Shown: positions 29,815 to 39,511 of the stretch, one piece after another
Layout: every line of letters starts with the position of its first letter
How positions within the stretch are numbered: the first letter of the stretch is position 1
Translations under genes and position numbers: made by a program
Source of the DNA: Actinomycetota bacterium
GTDB lineage: Bacteria; Actinomycetota; UBA4738; HRBIN12
NCBI GenBank assembly: GCA_035697485.1
Contig: DASSCU010000053.1
Coordinates: forward strand, 1 to 43,405
Reading direction: 5' to 3'
Length of the DNA: 43,405 nucleotides
Notes under the pieces: generated by a model
Databases searched by the model: none
Seen by the model: only the letters and a program-made list of their open reading frames with translations
Told to the model about the DNA's origin: nothing

Positions 29815-31392
29815 CTACTTCGTGTCCGCGAGGATCTGGCGGGCGGCGTTCGCCCCGGGGCCGCCGGTGATGCCGCCCCCGGGATGCGCGCCCGATCCGG
29901 CGAGGTACAGCCCGTCGATCTGCAGGCGATAGCGCGCTTCCCCGTTCAACGGACGCCAGGCGAAGTACTGGTCGAGTCCGGGCTCCGCGTGGTACACGTG
30001 GCCGCCGGTGAGCCCGTAGTCGGTCTCCATGTCCTCGGGCGTGATCACCTCTCGCGCCTCGACGAGCTCGCCGAGGCCGGGGGCGAAGCGTTCCATCGAC
30101 TTCACGGCGATGTCGGCGACGCCGTCGCGTTCGGAGGCCCAGTCCCTGTCGCGGAGCTTCCGCGGCGCCGCCTGGAACAGCACCGACATCACGTGCTTGC
30201 CCTCGGGGGCGAGCGACGGGTCGACGAGGGTGGGGATGGTCGCCTCGAGCATCGGGTCCTCGGCGACGTGCCCGTACTTGTTCGCGTCCATCGCCTGCTC
30301 GACGTGATCGATCGACAGGCCCACGACGATGCGGCCCTTCAGCCGCTCGACGTCGTCGCCGCCGTTGAACGACGGCAGGTCCGACAGCACGAGGTTGACC
30401 TTGGCGGTCGAGCCGGGCTGGCGGATGTTCTCGGCGCGCCAGACCTCGTAGGGGTTCAGCGCCACCGGATCGCACAGGCGCAGGGTGCGCTTCGGGTCGG
30501 CGGCCGACACGACGAGCGTCGCATCGAGTTCCGAGCCGTCGGCGAGCGTGACCCCGCGGACGCGGCCGTCCTTCGAGCGGATCGCGACGACTTCGGCGCC
30601 CGTGCGCACGTCGACCCCCTGCGCCTTCGCGGCAGCCTCGAGCGCGCTCGCGAGGGCGCCGGTGCCGCCGCGCGCGAACACCGTCGTGCCGGCCGCGCCC
30701 CCGTCGGTGCCGGCAGAGTCGTTCAAGAACACGGCCGCGGTGCCGGTCGCCCACGGGCCCATCGCCGTGTAGAGCACGCCACGGGTCGTGAGCGGTCCGC
30801 GCACGGCCTCGTCCTCGAAGACCTCCTGCACGAGGTCGGCGACGGCCATCGGCAACGCCCGGATCGCCTCGCGCCCGGCCTTGCCACCCAGGTCGCGGAA
30901 GGCCTTCCCGAGCTTCAGCCCCATCATCGCGTCGGCGATCGACGGCGACTTCGCGTCGGGCGGGGTGGCGACGTTGACGTAGGCGAGGAAGCTCGCGATC
31001 GCACGCACCTTGGCGTCGAACCCTCCGAACGCATCGGCGTCGTGGGTGTTGCGGTCACGCAGCTCGCTCGCGGTACGTGCCGGGTCGCCCCAGAACGTGA
31101 CGGCCGAGCCGTCGGGTTGGGGGGCGAACAACCGCACCGCGGGCGTGATCGCCTCGAACCCGAACGACGACAGCTGCAGGTCCTTCACGACCGACGCGCG
31201 CAGGCGGCCCACCGTGTGGGCGAGACCGGGCGCGGTGACGCCCTCGGCGGGCGAGGTGGTCCGCAGGACGCCTCCGACCTCGGGCGCCGCCTCGAGCAGC
31301 GTAACCGTCCTGCCCGCCTTCGCCAGGTAGGCGGCGGCGACCAAGCCGTTGTGGCCTCCCCCGATCACGACGACGTCGGTGCGGGCCATCAT
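29815..31392 (-). CDS. FAD-dependent oxidoreductase, phytoene-desaturase/PYROXD2-like, second of a pair
   Basis: A 525-residue flavoprotein. The N-terminus MARTDVVVIGGGHNGLVAAAYLAKAG is the FAD dinucleotide fold (GGGHNG) and the C-terminus LAGSGAHPGGGITGGPGANAARQIL is the second FAD block of CrtI-like enzymes. DGSELDATLVVSAADPKRTL is the usual mid-protein strand. The family includes carotenoid desaturases and human PYROXD2, but this pair is not next to carotenoid genes, so a carotenoid role is not supported. The ATG at 31392 (MMART) has GGGGGAG seven bases upstream. It follows its relative by 31 bases. Confidence 0.88.
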   Translation of the reverse strand: MMARTDVVVIGGGHNGLVAAAYLAKAGRTVTLLEAAPEVGGVLRTTSPAEGVTAPGLAHTVGRLRASVVKDLQLSSFGFEAITPAVRLFAPQPDGSAVTFWGDPARTASELRDRNTHDADAFGGFDAKVRAIASFLAYVNVATPPDAKSPSIADAMMGLKLGKAFRDLGGKAGREAIRALPMAVADLVQEVFEDEAVRGPLTTRGVLYTAMGPWATGTAAVFLNDSAGTDGGAAGTTVFARGGTGALASALEAAAKAQGVDVRTGAEVVAIRSKDGRVRGVTLADGSELDATLVVSAADPKRTLRLCDPVALNPYEVWRAENIRQPGSTAKVNLVLSDLPSFNGGDDVERLKGRIVVGLSIDHVEQAMDANKYGHVAEDPMLEATIPTLVDPSLAPEGKHVMSVLFQAAPRKLRDRDWASERDGVADIAVKSMERFAPGLGELVEAREVITPEDMETDYGLTGGHVYHAEPGLDQYFAWRPLNGEARYRLQIDGLYLAGSGAHPGGGITGGPGANAARQILADTK

Positions 31393-31423
31393 CCTGCGCT
31401 CCCCCTTCGGTGCGTGAGCGCCA

Positions 31424-33025
31424 CTACGCCGCCCTCCTTCCGCGCTTGCGCTGCTTCAGGTACTCGCGCGCCGCGATCATGCCCGGCGCACCCATGATGC
31501 CCCCGCCCGGGTGCGTCGCAGACCCACACATCCACAGGTCCTTCACGGGCGTCTCGTACCGCGCCCAGCCGGGCACGGGCCGGTTGAAGAACAGCTGCTC
31601 GAGCGAGAGTTCGCCGGCGAAGATGTTTCCCTCGGAGAGCCCCGTGATGTCCTCGATGTCCTTGGGCGTCACGAACTGGGAGCCCTCGATCAGCGACCGG
31701 ATGTTCGGGAACCGCTCCTCGAGCGTGTCGATCACGTTCTGGCCGAACGCTTCGCGCTTCTCGTCGTCCCACCGCTCGCCGTTCTCGAGGTGGTAGGGCG
31801 CGTACTGCACGAAGCAGCTCATCACGTGTTTGCCGGGGGGCGCCATCGTCGGGTCGACGAGCGTCGGCATGATGCAGTCGATGTAGGGGCGCTTCGACGG
31901 ACGGCCGTACTTCGCGTCGTCGTAGGCGCGCTCCATGTAGTCGAGCGAGGGCGAGAACGAGATCGCGCCGCGCAGCCACGGGCCGACGCCCGGCTTGCAG
32001 GCGAGCTCTGGCAGCCCGCTCAGCGCGAGGTTCACCTTCCCGCTGGAGCCGCGGTACTTGTAACGCATCACCTCGTCGCGGAACGACGGCTCGAGGTCGT
32101 GCTCGTCGAGCAGGTTGATGAACGTCTGCCGGGAGTCGAGTGAGCTCATCACGACGTCGGCCTCGATCTCCTCGCCAGACTCGAGCACGACGCCGGTGGT
32201 GCGCTCGCCCGCGGTCTTGATGTGCGAGACGCCCGCCTCGGTGCGGATCTCCACGCCGAGCGAGAGCGCGCTGTTCGCGATCGCGTAAGCCACCGACCCG
32301 GTGCCGCCTCGCGGCACACCCCACGCACGGAACGCGCCGTCGATCTCGCCCATGTAGTGGTGCAGCAGCACGTAGGCCGTGCCGGGTGACCGAGGCCCCT
32401 GGAACGTGCCGATGATGCCCGAGGCGCTCATCGTGGCCTTCAGCGGCTCGGTCTCGAACCACTGGTCGAGGAAGTCGGCCGCGCTCATCGTCATCAGCTG
32501 GATGAACGTGGACTGCATCTTCTTCGGGAGGTCCTTGAACGCCTTCGCGAGCGGACCGAGCGGCAGCCAGTGGCCCGGTGTGATCTTCCCGGGGTCGGGC
32601 GGCGCGATCGACAGGATCGGCTTGATGAACCGGCCCATCTCGGCCATCAGCTGGCCGTACTCCTCGTAGACCTCGGCATCGTTCAGGCTCCAGCGCCGCA
32701 GCTCGCGCACGTTCTTGCCATGGTCGTTCACGCGCCAGAGGTAGTCGTCCTCGAGCGGCGTGATCGTGCCGTCGAGCGGCAGGATCTCGAGCCCGTGCTT
32801 GGGAAGCTGCAGGTCGCGAATGATCTCGGGCCGCAGCAGCGACACGACGTAGCTGAAGACCGAGAACTTGAACCCGGGCACGATCTCCTCGGTGAGGGTG
32901 GCCCCGCCCAGGATGTGCCGGCGTTCGAGCACGAGCACGTTCAGCCCGCCCTTCGCGAGGTAGGCGGCGTTGACGAGGCCGTTGTGCCCGCCTCCGATCA
33001 CGACCGCGTCGTACCGCTTCGCCAT
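31424..33025 (-). CDS. FAD-dependent oxidoreductase, phytoene-desaturase/PYROXD2-like, first of a pair
   Basis: A 533-residue relative of the next protein. It has MAKRYDAVVIGGGHNGLVNAAYLAKGG for FAD binding, LERRHILGGATLTEEIVPGF after it, and WMCGSATHPGGGIMGAPGMIAAREYL near the end. A GGTGSVAYAIANSALSLGVEIRTEAGVSHI segment matches the substrate-domain junction of the family. The ATG at 33025 is preceded by AGGAGG at seven bases. The pair may form a heteromer or act on successive substrates. The gene is divergent from a folate-enzyme gene. Reaction unknown. Confidence 0.88.
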   Translation of the reverse strand: MAKRYDAVVIGGGHNGLVNAAYLAKGGLNVLVLERRHILGGATLTEEIVPGFKFSVFSYVVSLLRPEIIRDLQLPKHGLEILPLDGTITPLEDDYLWRVNDHGKNVRELRRWSLNDAEVYEEYGQLMAEMGRFIKPILSIAPPDPGKITPGHWLPLGPLAKAFKDLPKKMQSTFIQLMTMSAADFLDQWFETEPLKATMSASGIIGTFQGPRSPGTAYVLLHHYMGEIDGAFRAWGVPRGGTGSVAYAIANSALSLGVEIRTEAGVSHIKTAGERTTGVVLESGEEIEADVVMSSLDSRQTFINLLDEHDLEPSFRDEVMRYKYRGSSGKVNLALSGLPELACKPGVGPWLRGAISFSPSLDYMERAYDDAKYGRPSKRPYIDCIMPTLVDPTMAPPGKHVMSCFVQYAPYHLENGERWDDEKREAFGQNVIDTLEERFPNIRSLIEGSQFVTPKDIEDITGLSEGNIFAGELSLEQLFFNRPVPGWARYETPVKDLWMCGSATHPGGGIMGAPGMIAAREYLKQRKRGRRAA

Positions 33026-33131
33026 GGGGTGCCTCCTGGGTGACTCGAAGTCAACGGGGCGTCCCCGAACACGGCCCGGGTCGCCGGTCGCCAATGCTAG
33101 TCGGGGGTCAGAACGCACACCAACGGCCCTT

Positions 33132-33144
33132 TGACCTCAGGTCA
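33132..33144. promoter_or_regulatory. Palindromic operator candidate TGACCT-C-AGGTCA
   Basis: A perfect 6-bp inverted repeat with a one-base centre lies midway in the 211-base gap between the divergent oxidoreductase and GcvT-like genes. The size suits a dimeric repressor. A TACCCT box at 33179-33184 could be a -10 for the plus-strand gene. No other clear element is seen in this gap. Confidence 0.4.
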
Positions 33145-33236
33145 GTCCGGTCCGTGCCGGGGCTCGGCGACGGTCGGCTACCCTACCCGCTGTCGAGCGT
33201 CTCCCGTGCGCCCGAGAACACCGAGGAGGTCCACCC

Positions 33237-34433
33237 GTGAGCGTGCCCACCGCGTTCTTCCCGCGCCAGGAGGCGCTGAACTCGAAGATGGCCTGGGGCG
33301 AGTGGTCCGGGTACTTCTCGGTGCCCGTCTACGCCGACTTCCACGACATCGAGTACAGCGCGATCCGCGAGGCGGCGGCGGTAATCGACATCAGCCCGCT
33401 CTACAAGTACGAGATCTCCGGCTCCGACGCGCAGCGCCTGCTCGACCGGGTGATGACCCGCGACATGACGAAGCTGCGGGTCGACCGCGTCGTCTACTCC
33501 CCGTGGTGCGACGAGGAGGGAAAGGTGCTCGACGACGGCACGATCACCCGCCTCGACGACACCACGTACCGCATCACCGCCGCCGACCCTTGCTACCGCT
33601 GGTTCATGCTGAACGCGACCGGGCTCGACGTCGAGATCGGCGACATCAGCGACCGCACCGCCGCCCTCGCCCTGCAGGGACGGCTGAGCCGCGAGGTGCT
33701 GCAGGACGCGACCGGGGCCGACTGGACCGATCTGAAGTACTTCGGCCGCCGCACGACCGAGATCGCCGGCGTCGCGGTCGACGTCACCCGCACCGGCTAC
33801 ACCGGCGACCGCGGATACGAGCTCTGGATCGCTGCCGACCAGGCGCTGCCCGTCTGGGACCGCATCTTCGAGGTGGGCGAGCGCTCCGGCATCTTCCCCG
33901 TCGGCATCAACGCGATGGACGTCGCGCGCGTGGAAGCCGGCCTGATCCTGATCGAGGCTGAGTACACCAGCGCACGCCACGCCGTCGCCCTCGAGCAGCA
34001 GTACTCGCCCTACGAGCTCGGCTTCGAGCCGCTCGTCGACCTCGGCAAGGCCACCGACTTCACCGGTCGCCGGGCCCTGCGTGCCGAGCACGCGGCCGGT
34101 GGTCCCGCCCGGCGGCTCGTCGGCGTCGAGCTCGACTGGCTCGGCATCGAGGCCATGTACGCGAAGCACGGCCTCGCCCCCGCGATCAGCCCCTTCGTGC
34201 ACCGCGACCCGGTGCCGGTCTACAACAAGGAGGGGAAGCAGGTCGGTCGCGCCACCTCGGTCACGTGGGGCACGACGATCAAGAAGATGGTGGGGTTCGG
34301 CTCGGTCGACAAGGGCCACGCGAAGCCCGGCACACGCCTCAGCGTCGAGTGGAGCGTCGAGGGCGAGCGCGGCAAGGTCGCCGCGACCGTCGTGCCGCTG
34401 CCCTTCCTCGAGCTGGATCGCAAGCGCACCTAG
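33237..34433 (+). CDS. GcvT-family aminomethyltransferase-like, tetrahydrofolate-dependent enzyme
   Basis: A 398-residue protein of the T-protein fold. Visible blocks: AAVIDISPLYKYEISGSDAQRLLDRVMTRDM, YSPWCDEEGKVLDDGTITRL, DVTRTGYTGDRGYELWI, and VGINAMDVARVEAGLILIEAEY (the last is the folate/substrate block GxxAxDxxRxEAG). The C-terminal half ends with the barrel domain QVGRATSVTWGTTIKKMVGFG. No glycine-cleavage P, H or L gene is nearby, so a demethylase or dehydrogenase role like DmdA, sarcosine or choline-degrading relatives is possible. The GTG at 33237 follows GAGGAGG. Substrate unknown. Confidence 0.85.
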   Translation: MSVPTAFFPRQEALNSKMAWGEWSGYFSVPVYADFHDIEYSAIREAAAVIDISPLYKYEISGSDAQRLLDRVMTRDMTKLRVDRVVYSPWCDEEGKVLDDGTITRLDDTTYRITAADPCYRWFMLNATGLDVEIGDISDRTAALALQGRLSREVLQDATGADWTDLKYFGRRTTEIAGVAVDVTRTGYTGDRGYELWIAADQALPVWDRIFEVGERSGIFPVGINAMDVARVEAGLILIEAEYTSARHAVALEQQYSPYELGFEPLVDLGKATDFTGRRALRAEHAAGGPARRLVGVELDWLGIEAMYAKHGLAPAISPFVHRDPVPVYNKEGKQVGRATSVTWGTTIKKMVGFGSVDKGHAKPGTRLSVEWSVEGERGKVAATVVPLPFLELDRKRT

Positions 34434-34512: not shown

Positions 34513-36408
34513 ATGGAACGACGCTCTGACACCCGTGCCCTGATCGTGTTCGCGGCCCTCGCCGGCCTCGTCGGGCTCGTCGTCGGCATCGCCGGATCGT
34601 GGGTGCTCGGCGTCATCGTCGGCCTGATCACGCTGGGGATGGGGCTCGCGATCACCGTCTTGGGCCACGGCCGTGGGGGCGGAGCCGAGGCCGACCCCGG
34701 CAGGCGCCACCTGCTCGTCGCCGCCGGCCTGGGCGGGCTCGCCTGGGCGGTCGCCGGTCCCTCGATCGGCTGGGCGGCGCGCAAGCTCGGGCGCCCCGAC
34801 CCGCGTCCGATCCAGGAGGCGATGGCGACCGACCTCGGCTCGGAGTACTTGGAGCTCGTGCGGCGCACGTTCATCCCGCGACGCTCCGGTGACCTTCAGT
34901 TGCTGCTCGCTCCTTACAACAGCTCCAACTACCCGCAGGAGTCGCTCTCGCTCGTGCCGCAGGATCCGCGCACGAGCCACGCCAGCGTGTGGATGTACCT
35001 CGAACGCATCCCGCTGCTCATGCACGCACCCGGCCTCGTGGCCGCGAGCGACTCCGACGCACGGGTCACGCTCGCCGACCTCGCCCCGACGACCGCGCAG
35101 CTGATCGGGTTCGACGGCTGGCCCGACGACCGCGACGGCTCGCCGCTGCCGCTGAGCGCCACGGGATCGACGAGGCCCCCGCGGGTCGTCGTGACGTTCG
35201 TGATCGACGGAGGCGGCTGGAACGTGCTGAAGGCCTTCCCGGACGATTGGCCGAACCTGCGAGCGCTGATGGACGAGAGCGCGAACTTCCGCAACGCGAT
35301 CGTGGGTTCGTTCCCCGCGGTGACCGCGTGCGCCCACGGCACGATCGGCACGGGCGCCTTCCCGAACCGTCACGGTGTGACCGGGCACAATATCCGCGAC
35401 GAGCAGGGCGTCGTTCGCAAGGCCTACGACACCCCGGGGAAGGCGCGGCCCGGCGACATCTGGATCCCTACCCTGTCCGACCTCTGGCACGAGGAAACGA
35501 ACGCGTGGGTCGGGCAGATCGGGTATCAGGTCTGGCACCTCGGCATGATGGGGTACGGCGGACGCGACCGTCCCGCTGACGACCTGCCGGTCGGCGTCTT
35601 CTGGGACGAGGACGGCACGGCGACCTGGCAACCCCACAACCCCGAGCTGTTCCGGCTCCCTGCGTCGATGCCGACCCCCGACGACTACCAGCGCTATCTC
35701 GACGAGTTCGACGACCCGGGCTGGGACTCCGACTTCACGCCCGTCGGGCGACAGTCGCCGTGCTGCCGCCCGCCGATCGTGCGGTATCAGGGCGACGTGA
35801 TCGAAGCGGCCTTCGATTCCGAGCCGATCGGGGACGGCGCGACCGGCCTGCTCTCCACGACCTACAAGTCGCCGGACTACACGGGCCACGTCTACGGCAT
35901 GGGCTCGAAATGGACCGGTCTGCAGCTGCGCGCGGTCGACGAAGAATTGGGGCGGCTGAGGATGATGCTCGACGAACGCTTCCCCGACGAGTACGCGTTG
36001 ATCGTGACCGCCGACCACGGACAGTGCCCGCTGCCGGACTCGGTGGGCGGCGTGCGGCTCGACCCGATCCAGCTCGAGCGCTTCGTCGAGTCACGGTTCT
36101 CGGGCGTGACCGGCGTGGTCGAGAGCGTCGTACCCTCGGAGGTCTTCCTGAACGTCGACCGGCTCCGCGACAATGGCGGCGCCACGATCGAGGACGTCGC
36201 TGCCTCGCTCGCCGACTACCGATACCGGCAGAACATCGGCGCCTACGTGCCGCGCAGCGCCGTCGAGCAGGACCTGCTCGACCAGAAGGAGTTCGCGGCC
36301 GTCTTCGGCACGACGTTCCTCGAGTCGCTCGCCGATCGCGACCTCGCGAGGTACGGCGACACCGTCTACGCGGACGGCGACCCGGACGGTTTGCCCGGCC
36401 TCATCTAG
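34513..36408 (+). CDS. Membrane-anchored type I phosphodiesterase/alkaline-phosphatase superfamily protein with permuted lobes
   Basis: A 631-residue protein. Helices at about 9-28, 29-50 and 66-84 anchor it. Residues 127-215 (THASVWMYLERIPLLMHAPG-like strand with His156, then LADLAPTTAQLIGFDGW and DGSPLPL) match the C-terminal part of type I phosphodiesterases. The catalytic lobe comes after it: VTFVIDGGGW with metal Asp232, AVTACAHGTIGTGAFPNRHG with candidate nucleophile Thr271, SPDYTGH, and VTADHGQCP. In known members these come first. The ATG at 34513 is preferred to 34501 because GGAG lies six bases upstream. It is 79 bases after the GcvT-like gene. Substrate likely a phosphodiester or phosphonate, not shown. 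Confidence 0.82.
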   Translation: MERRSDTRALIVFAALAGLVGLVVGIAGSWVLGVIVGLITLGMGLAITVLGHGRGGGAEADPGRRHLLVAAGLGGLAWAVAGPSIGWAARKLGRPDPRPIQEAMATDLGSEYLELVRRTFIPRRSGDLQLLLAPYNSSNYPQESLSLVPQDPRTSHASVWMYLERIPLLMHAPGLVAASDSDARVTLADLAPTTAQLIGFDGWPDDRDGSPLPLSATGSTRPPRVVVTFVIDGGGWNVLKAFPDDWPNLRALMDESANFRNAIVGSFPAVTACAHGTIGTGAFPNRHGVTGHNIRDEQGVVRKAYDTPGKARPGDIWIPTLSDLWHEETNAWVGQIGYQVWHLGMMGYGGRDRPADDLPVGVFWDEDGTATWQPHNPELFRLPASMPTPDDYQRYLDEFDDPGWDSDFTPVGRQSPCCRPPIVRYQGDVIEAAFDSEPIGDGATGLLSTTYKSPDYTGHVYGMGSKWTGLQLRAVDEELGRLRMMLDERFPDEYALIVTADHGQCPLPDSVGGVRLDPIQLERFVESRFSGVTGVVESVVPSEVFLNVDRLRDNGGATIEDVAASLADYRYRQNIGAYVPRSAVEQDLLDQKEFAAVFGTTFLESLADRDLARYGDTVYADGDPDGLPGLI

Positions 36409-37827: not shown

Positions 37828-39093
37828 GTGCCCGGCTCGCTCTCCCTCTCCGACGACGATCTCGCGGCGCTCGACGGTGAGCGCGGTGCCGCTGCGCAGC
37901 TCGCGATGCGCATCCTCGCCCGCACGGCCGAGGCGATGGACGCCCCGCACCTGCTCGAGGTGTCCTCGGCGCACATCGACGGCTGCTTGTACCACGGCCG
38001 TGCTGGGCTGGACTTCGCCAGGCGCCTCGCCGACGGCGGTGCCCGCGTCGCGATCCCCACGACCCTCAACGTCTCCTCGCTCGACCTGCTCCACCCCGAG
38101 CTCGTGCACCTCGACCGCGAGACGGTGGCGGACGCCCGGGCCTTGATGGACGCATACCTGGCGATGGGGTGCCGTCCCACCTGGACGTGCGCCCCCTACC
38201 AGCTGGCAGTGCGGCCGGCCCTCGGCGAGCACGTCGCCTGGGCCGAGTCGAACGCGATCGTCTTCGCCAACTCCGTGCTCGGAGCCCGCACCGGCCGCTA
38301 CGGCGACTTCATCGACATCTGCTGCGCGATCACCGGGCGAGCACCCGCGGCCGGCCTGCATCTGGACGGGGAACGACTCGCGAGGACGGTGTTCCGCCTC
38401 GGAACGCTCCCCGCACCGTTGCTCGCCGACGAGGCGGCGTTCGCGGCGATCGGCCACCTGGTGGGTCGTCGCACGGGGAACGCGGTGCCGGCGATCGTGG
38501 GATTGCCGCTGTCGACCACGGAAGACCACTTGAAGGCCTTCGGCGCAGCGGCGGCGTCGTCGGGCGCCGTCGCGATGTTCCACGCGACCGGTGTGACGCC
38601 CGAGGCGCCGACGCTGGAGGCGGCGACCGGGGGCGCGGAGCCGGTGCTCGATCTCGAGATCGGACCCGCCGACGTGCGGGCGGCGCGCGACGAGCTGTCG
38701 ACCGTGGAGGTCGGCGCCGCCGTCGGGAGCGTGAGCCTGGGAACGCCGCACTGCTCGGTGGCCGAACTCCGGCGCCTCGCCGGACTCGTCGAAGGGCGCA
38801 GGCTCGCGGTGCCGTGCTACGTGAACACCGGCCGCGACGTGCTGGCTGCTGTTCCGGCGGTCGCCGACGCCCTGTCGGCGGCCGGCGTCACGATCGTGAC
38901 CGACACGTGCACCTACATCACGCCGATCATCGAGCGGGCCGCCACACCGGTCGTCACGAACTCCGGCAAGTGGGCGTGGTACGCACCAGGCAACCTCGGC
39001 TTCGACGTCGCCATCGCCACACTCGATGAGTGTGTCGACTCGGCGGAAGCGGGCCACCTCGTCCGCGACCGGAAGGTGTGGGGCGATGAGTGA
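37828..39093 (+). CDS. Aconitase X catalytic (large) subunit, DUF521
   Basis: A 421-residue AcnX large subunit. Family blocks include LEVSSAHIDGCLYHGRAGLDFA, ESNAIVFANSVLGARTGRYGDFIDICCAITGRAP, GTPHCSVAELRRLAGLVEGR, DTCTYITP and VVTNSGKWAWYAPG; the conserved Cys residues (in DICCAI, GTPHCS and DTCTY) probably ligate an iron-sulfur cluster. Bacterial AcnX dehydrates cis-3-hydroxy-L-proline; the archaeal form dehydrates phosphomevalonate. Here the swivel domain is a separate protein, encoded in an overlapping frame (8 bases). GTG at 37828 has CAGGAT just upstream, usable as -10 or ribosome site. Which substrate applies is not decided. Confidence 0.88.
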   Translation: MPGSLSLSDDDLAALDGERGAAAQLAMRILARTAEAMDAPHLLEVSSAHIDGCLYHGRAGLDFARRLADGGARVAIPTTLNVSSLDLLHPELVHLDRETVADARALMDAYLAMGCRPTWTCAPYQLAVRPALGEHVAWAESNAIVFANSVLGARTGRYGDFIDICCAITGRAPAAGLHLDGERLARTVFRLGTLPAPLLADEAAFAAIGHLVGRRTGNAVPAIVGLPLSTTEDHLKAFGAAAASSGAVAMFHATGVTPEAPTLEAATGGAEPVLDLEIGPADVRAARDELSTVEVGAAVGSVSLGTPHCSVAELRRLAGLVEGRRLAVPCYVNTGRDVLAAVPAVADALSAAGVTIVTDTCTYITPIIERAATPVVTNSGKWAWYAPGNLGFDVAIATLDECVDSAEAGHLVRDRKVWGDE

Positions 39094-39511
39094 GTCGTCG
39101 ACGACCGGCGCCCGGACGCTCGTGCCCGGTATGGCCACGGGCGAGGTGCTTGTCCTCGACGAACCGCTCAGCTTCTGGGGGGGCCTCGACCCGGAGTCGG
39201 GGGCGCTGATCGACGCCCACCATCCCCAGGTCGGCGCGTCGCTCGCCGGGAGGGTGCTCGTGATGCCCTCGGGCAGGGGATCGAGCTCGAGCTCGTACGT
39301 GCTGGCCGAGGCGATCCGCGCCGGCACCGCGCCCGTCGCTGTGGTGCTCGGCGAGGCCGATGCGATCGTGGCCCTCGGCGCGATCGTCGCCGCGGAGCTG
39401 TACGGCATCGCGGTCCCCGTCGTGGTCTCGGCCGATCCGGCCCTCGTGACGGGCTCGACGGTGACGGTGAACGCGGAGGCCGGAGGCCGCGTCGACATCT
39501 CGCCCAGCTGA
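39086..39511 (+). CDS. Aconitase X swivel-domain (small) subunit, DUF126
   Basis: A 141-residue AcnX small subunit: GMATGEVLVLDEPLSFWGGLDPESG, then the swivel-domain core LAGRVLVMPSGRGSSSSSYVLAEAI and IVAAELYGIAVPVVV. The GRGSSSSS loop normally contacts the substrate and contains the conserved Ser. It starts inside the last codons of the large subunit (ATGAGTGA, 8-base overlap), so the two chains are made together and should assemble into one enzyme. No signal peptide; cytosolic. Confidence 0.9.
   Translation: MSESSTTGARTLVPGMATGEVLVLDEPLSFWGGLDPESGALIDAHHPQVGASLAGRVLVMPSGRGSSSSSYVLAEAIRAGTAPVAVVLGEADAIVALGAIVAAELYGIAVPVVVSADPALVTGSTVTVNAEAGGRVDISPS

Follow-up and report, generated by a model that had tools for sequence, protein, structure and literature searches.

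A probable natural circular permutation in a family of PafA/PhoK-type phosphoesterases of the alkaline phosphatase superfamily

Overview

The open frame that runs from the ATG at position 34513 to position 36408 on the forward strand of the window (the whole 43,405-nucleotide stretch of Actinomycetota DNA analysed here) encodes a protein of 631 amino acids, P0001, that very probably arose in nature by circular permutation of a two-metal phosphoesterase of the PafA/PhoK type, within the alkaline phosphatase superfamily. The gene was delineated by the frame itself, Pfam, phmmer and a family profile. The canonical chain of these enzymes consists of the nucleophile lobe, the DxxxH/ADHG lobe and a block that carries the third metal-binding His. 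In the scenario that we propose, the break fell in the loop that leads into the third-His block, and a linker of some twelve residues came to join the old chain ends. The composition of the active site would be preserved, with T271 as the nucleophile, D232, D501, H502 and T271 on one metal, and D455, H459 and the relocated H156 on the other. The rotated order, the conserved ligands, the absence of another conserved His, the inheritance across a large family and the position of the cut are established at the level of sequence.

Rotated order of the conserved segments

P0001 starts, behind its membrane anchor, with the block H156...IPLL...DLAPTTAQLIG...DGSPL, followed by the lobe with VIDGGG, D232 and T271, and then by D455xxxH459 and D501-H502. 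The moved block (residues 104-216, positions 34822-35160) is the homologue of PafA 435-533 and PhoK 453-550 according to phmmer, the rotated alignment and the family profile. A short linker (residues 213-224, positions 35149-35184), located by the rotated alignment, forms the new joint between the old C-terminus and the old N-terminus. The nucleophile lobe, with the metal ligand D232, the nucleophile T271 and H275 (positions 35185-35547; Pfam and conservation), comes next, followed by the second catalytic lobe with the invariant K452 and the metal ligands D455, H459, D501 and H502 (positions 35806-36048; phmmer, profile and conservation).

Three comparisons recover this order. When the single sequence is compared with the PDB using phmmer, residues 209-297 match PhoK 26-115, residues 432-510 match PhoK 276-354, and residues 113-216 match PhoK 453-550. 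A profile built from 41 relatives matches PafA in the same manner (168-285 to PafA 13-149, 380-523 to 265-414, and 64-163 to 435-533), with a whole-sequence E-value of 2e-50 and an i-E-value of 2.8e-13 for the block. The Pfam Sulfatase match pairs residues 163-199, in the front part of P0001, with the final positions of the profile (264-300 of 301), and the Phosphodiest match (PF01663; 107.7 bits, cut-off 23) covers residues 226-522 and stops at profile position 238 of 342, starting from 1, because the end of the domain stands at the front of P0001. Each of the parental segments is present once, in rotated order, within a single chain, as is the case in natural permutants. A first, sequence-only reading of the window had placed the block ahead of the nucleophile lobe and suggested a natural circular permutant. 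The placement is borne out by all three comparisons, and the permutation is supported by the rotated three-segment match to PafA jointly with the conserved ligands. The limits originally given for the block, 127-215, were too narrow, its homologous start being nearer residue 104, and PafA and PhoK are a better yardstick than the nucleotide pyrophosphatase (NPP) or PhoV-type enzymes that had been proposed.

Across the family, the profile matches permuted proteins in one collinear stretch and canonical proteins in pieces that appear in rotated order. Rotation of the canonical proteins in silico, 110-150 residues from the C-terminal end, yields a single collinear match, with the score rising, for example, from 122 to 181 or from 126 to 187 bits. 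The gain is 50-80 bits in the clearest cases and small in about half of the 42 canonical frames, on which the family profile is weak. By alignment, the cut is in the loop equivalent to PafA ~415-434, residues 415-434 of which are left uncovered by the 41-relative profile. In the rotated alignment, the new C-terminus (..VYSATTM-like in canonical proteins) and the new N-terminus (..IEELLQNGYxxxRSGD-like) flank a loop of roughly ten residues. Residues 594-631 (positions 36292-36405), the new C-terminus, lie on the other side of the cut, as indicated by the rotated alignment and conservation.

Active site and substrate

The zinc ligands of PhoK are H491, H304 and D300 for M1, and H346, D345, T89 and D49 for M2 (PMC3145672). 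The equivalents in P0001 are H156, H459 and D455 (M1), and H502, D501, T271 and D232 (M2). Among 96 non-identical full-length permuted proteins, D232, D455, H459, D501, H502 and H156 are invariant (96/96), as are H275 and K452, and the position of T271 is occupied by Thr in 94 and by Ser in 2. His156 (positions 34978-34980), suggested earlier to supply the third metal His, aligns with PhoK H491 (PMC3145672) and, given its invariance, is the predicted third ligand of M1. P0001 possesses the ligand set of the type I phosphodiesterase/nucleotide pyrophosphatase family (PF01663), namely, D, D, H, D, H and H, along with the Thr/Ser nucleophile, and would be expected to bind metals and to be catalytically active. 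It differs from that branch in the order of its segments, in that the third-His block comes last in the type I phosphodiesterases.

The closest known systems are PafA (PDB 5tj3/5too) and PhoK/SPAP of Sphingomonas (PDB 3q3q/5xwi), which are homologous to P0001 over the whole catalytic domain, share the metal and nucleophile positions with it, and are its best sequence and fold matches. P0001 differs from both in the rotated order, in the membrane anchor in front, in the N110/K171/R173 site, which is not kept as a set, and in the new invariant lysine, K452. This lysine, part of the motif K-x-x-D455, is missing from the aligned canonical sequences and seems to be a hallmark of the permuted family. 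Against the NCBIfam PafA equivalog model NF042991, P0001 scores 79.9 bits, far below the cut-off of 650.

The substrate is probably an organophosphate ester outside the cell. The signature of the PhoK/PafA class includes the Thr along with Asn110, Lys171 and Arg173, the last three of which bind the phosphate (PMC3145672). Of this signature, the permuted family keeps the Thr; the column of Asn110 contains N in 11 of the 96 proteins and His in P0001, with N293 adjacent, and no conserved Lys/Arg pair corresponding to K171/R173 is found in the family (P0001 has RDR in this region, where the alignment is uncertain). The incomplete phosphate clamp, together with the new invariant K452, could point to sulfate or phosphonate esters as the main substrates of a permuted enzyme, and the alkaline phosphatase superfamily is catalytically promiscuous. 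Nevertheless, we consider such a preference unlikely: a Thr nucleophile with the full two-metal set is of the phosphoesterase kind rather than of the formylglycine sulfatase kind, and the Phosphodiest family of Pfam matches all 41 members of the alignment.

Predicted structure

The AlphaFold2 model of P0001 (pLDDT 90.6, pTM 0.87; ten-residue means of 79-98 across the block) and that of a paralogue (pLDDT 89.6, pTM 0.86) are both confident in the block as well as in the catalytic lobes. Foldseek, with a probability of 1.00, retrieves PafA as the top match for both P0001 and the paralogue, and PhoK as the second match for the paralogue. The TM-scores to PafA and PhoK are 0.42-0.55 and stay low because Foldseek aligns sequentially; such values are expected of a permutant and are not proof of one. 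H156 is predicted to lie at the metal pair, and covariation over the 96 related sequences, which is confounded by ancestry, connects the loop of H156 with the nucleophile turn through the pairs 157-272, 158-267 and 139-274.

The linker between the block and the nucleophile lobe is short, but it is sterically conceivable that the chain is permuted and that the block completes the active site of the neighbouring monomer in a domain-swapped dimer. We regard such a swap as quite improbable: both monomer models are confident (pTM 0.86-0.87), and the Cys pair that is located at the two chain termini in most relatives (see below) is most simply read as a bond within one chain.

The contiguity of the block also means that it could, in principle, be a duplicated fragment, in which case residues 104-216 would form a separate accessory domain that resembles a C-terminal lobe, with a normal third His contributed by the C-terminus. 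No column after H502 contains His in more than 50% of the 96 permuted proteins, whereas H156 is conserved in all, so that the third His can come only from the moved block; furthermore, the canonical sequence to which the C-terminal part of P0001 aligns lies entirely upstream of the cut. Conservation across the 96 relatives leads us to reject the separate domain as extremely unlikely, and the invariance of H156 and the lack of a later conserved His exclude, by sequence, the normal C-terminal His block that the sequence-only reading had set against its own proposal.

Membrane anchor and export

Three N-terminal helices are predicted in P0001 (residues 5-26, 30-51 and 62-93) by AlphaFold2 secondary structure and hydropathy, in agreement with the earlier description of a block preceded by three membrane helices. 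Helices 1 and 2 are encoded at positions 34525-34665, and helix 3, taken here as about residues 68-93, at positions 34714-34791. Comparison of the clade sequences shows a twin-arginine motif, R64-R65-H-L-L (positions 34702-34716), before helix 3. This motif, of the type RRx(F/L/V)(L) and represented by RRHLL, RRNFL, RRRFL, RRRLL and RRRVL, precedes the block by exactly 49 residues in each of the 12 P0001-clade members that were listed. Helix 3 of this clade is weakly hydrophobic and is followed by basic residues, and a tatC gene was found in the P0001 genome. Most of the paralogues have a single signal or anchor helix instead, often with a lipobox-like motif.

The actinobacterial Rieske protein, in which helices 1 and 2 are inserted via Sec and helix 3 via Tat, likewise has three helices before its extracytoplasmic domain, a twin-arginine between helices 2 and 3, and a weak helix 3 followed by basic residues, although its globular domain is different (PMC5449189). 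By analogy, and because the twin-arginine precedes the last helix, we propose that Sec inserts helices 1 and 2 of P0001 and Tat exports the folded domain, so that the enzyme would reside outside the membrane, behind the three helices.

The terminal cysteine pair

Two alignment columns, 106 and 610 in the numbering of P0001, lie on either side of the cut and are both occupied by Cys in 70 of the 96 permuted proteins and by no Cys in 26, with no case of a single Cys; P0001 itself has Thr and Asp, respectively, at these positions. Exactly two Cys residues after residue 105 are present in 73 of the 96 proteins. The pair 106-610 is the strongest covarying one among about 110,000 long-range pairs in the 96 proteins. 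In the tree, only two changes explain the trait, and the co-occurrence accordingly weighs as two events, but divergent paralogues have strongly retained the pair. Most simply, the two cysteines probably form an extracellular disulfide that bridges the cut.

The only member of the Cys-pair clade that lacks both cysteines (L039:4830-6527) has a clean twin-arginine lipoprotein-like signal (SRRSFLRLS...LGAC). The P0001 clade is likewise unstapled and carries a twin-arginine motif. Tat substrates fold in the reducing cytoplasm, where the Cys pair would therefore be useless. The association between Tat export and the loss of the pair is only suggestive because other unstapled clades do not have the twin-arginine motif. 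On balance, we lean slightly toward an evolutionary scenario in which an old, multi-phylum class of permuted enzymes includes one lineage that later gained a disulfide between the new chain ends and another that became a Tat-exported membrane form without the disulfide.

Distribution, origin and genomic context

The genome of P0001 encodes five more intact copies with the same order, at 30-34% identity, and one degenerate copy. The scan of species genomes for relatives yielded 79 loci. Every Actinomycetota relative with a readable order has the block, the nucleophile lobe and the second catalytic lobe (block-N-C) in one frame. Outside this phylum, about 40 distant relatives with a detected block (from Acidobacteria, Bacteroidetes, Burkholderiales, Planctomycetes, Chloroflexi and others) have the order N-C-block. 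Genome coordinates again gave the same two orders. Permuted matches were found in 35 of the 396 sampled Actinomycetota genomes, in the order to which the window belongs (families f1-f3, not f4) and in one further family. Full-length permuted matches were likewise found in 6 of 199 genomes sampled from Acidobacteriota, the phylum of a Blastocatellia locus, and in 1 of 189 sampled from Myxococcota, the phylum of a Myxococcales locus. Homologues with the same order, as sought after the first reading, are thus present in at least three phyla, with the canonical order in several others. The proteins from the Acidobacteriota and Myxococcales phylum samples (L164-L170) are without the terminal Cys pair, have the same end at the cut site, and keep K452. 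No permuted matches at E<=1e-40 were found in 301 genomes from the phylum of a Chloroflexi locus, 299 from that of a Rubrivivax locus and 199 from that of a Planctomycetes locus, an absence that is weak because none of these sets contains a positive control of its own.

The frequent tandem arrangement of the relatives might suggest a frameshift, an assembly error or two adjacent canonical genes called as one, but each frame alone reads block-N-C with nothing left over and the order recurs in dozens of independent assemblies, at single-copy loci and in three phyla, so the homologues and the single frames lead us to reject an artefact as scarcely credible.

In the tree of the N-C part, a branch with full support sets all permuted proteins apart from the canonical ones, except that L076, a canonical protein on a very long branch, falls on the permuted side; this topology fits a single origin of the permutation. 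Permuted genes commonly stand in tandem, as at L029, L033, L139 and L010, where two to five of them share a strand. Such arrays suit, and are consistent with, permutation via duplication and partial deletion, without proving it; no intermediate of this process was seen.

Many arrays are adjoined, often in divergent transcription, by a permuted paralogue of about 450 amino acids (e.g., L007:1039-2391; the copy in the P0001 genome, on the minus strand, is near G000:C58, 59514-60308). The catalytic residues are lost in all 15 copies examined and both terminal cysteines are kept in the complete copies, so that this paralogue looks like a conserved pseudoenzyme. A few permuted frames from other genomes (G018:C150:6402-8021, G101:C4:351413-353047 and G131:C15:165855-167405) contain one in-frame stop (TGA or TAG) each and may be pseudogenes or assembly errors.

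The orthologues of P0001 are located directly downstream of a GcvT-family gene and beside a divergent pair of FAD oxidoreductase genes in nearly every locus that is long enough to tell, and locus comparison identifies this gene at positions 33237-34433 (forward strand) of the window. Within positions 29815-34433, as well as in loci L011-L023, two genes for FAD-dependent oxidoreductases are divergent from the GcvT-family gene, with the permuted enzyme gene next. A two-gene aconitase X (catalytic part, 37828-39093; swivel domain, 39026-39511) is also present in the window and, in L013 and L014, immediately follows the permuted gene.

Other permutants and implications

Few natural circular permutations relocate part of an active site to the opposite chain end. 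In AlgX/AlgJ and PatB1, the SGNH hydrolase fold is naturally permuted in a circular manner, with the order H-S-G-N instead of S-G-N-H (PMC9487903). As in P0001, the permutation brings the block with the catalytic His to the front; the fold and the chemistry are unrelated. Judging from its title, Kojima 2005 (cited in PMC2395249) engineered highly active circular permutants of E. coli alkaline phosphatase, which suggests that the superfamily fold tolerates permutation; those permutants, unlike P0001, are man-made. The open-licence literature searched contained no description of a natural permutation for the alkaline phosphatase superfamily. Compared with the initial proposal, the family, the cysteine pair, the twin-arginine anchor and the wider distribution are new.

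Pfam and sequential fold searches recognise these proteins only in part, and members of the family therefore resemble truncated phosphodiesterases in annotation. Permuted and canonical relatives coexist, the cut site is clear and a disulfide is a candidate for compensation, which makes folding, stability and activity directly comparable between the two orders. If the proposed succession of events is true, the disulfide would covalently restore the connection that was cut by the permutation, and the family would be a record of evolution repairing a permutation.
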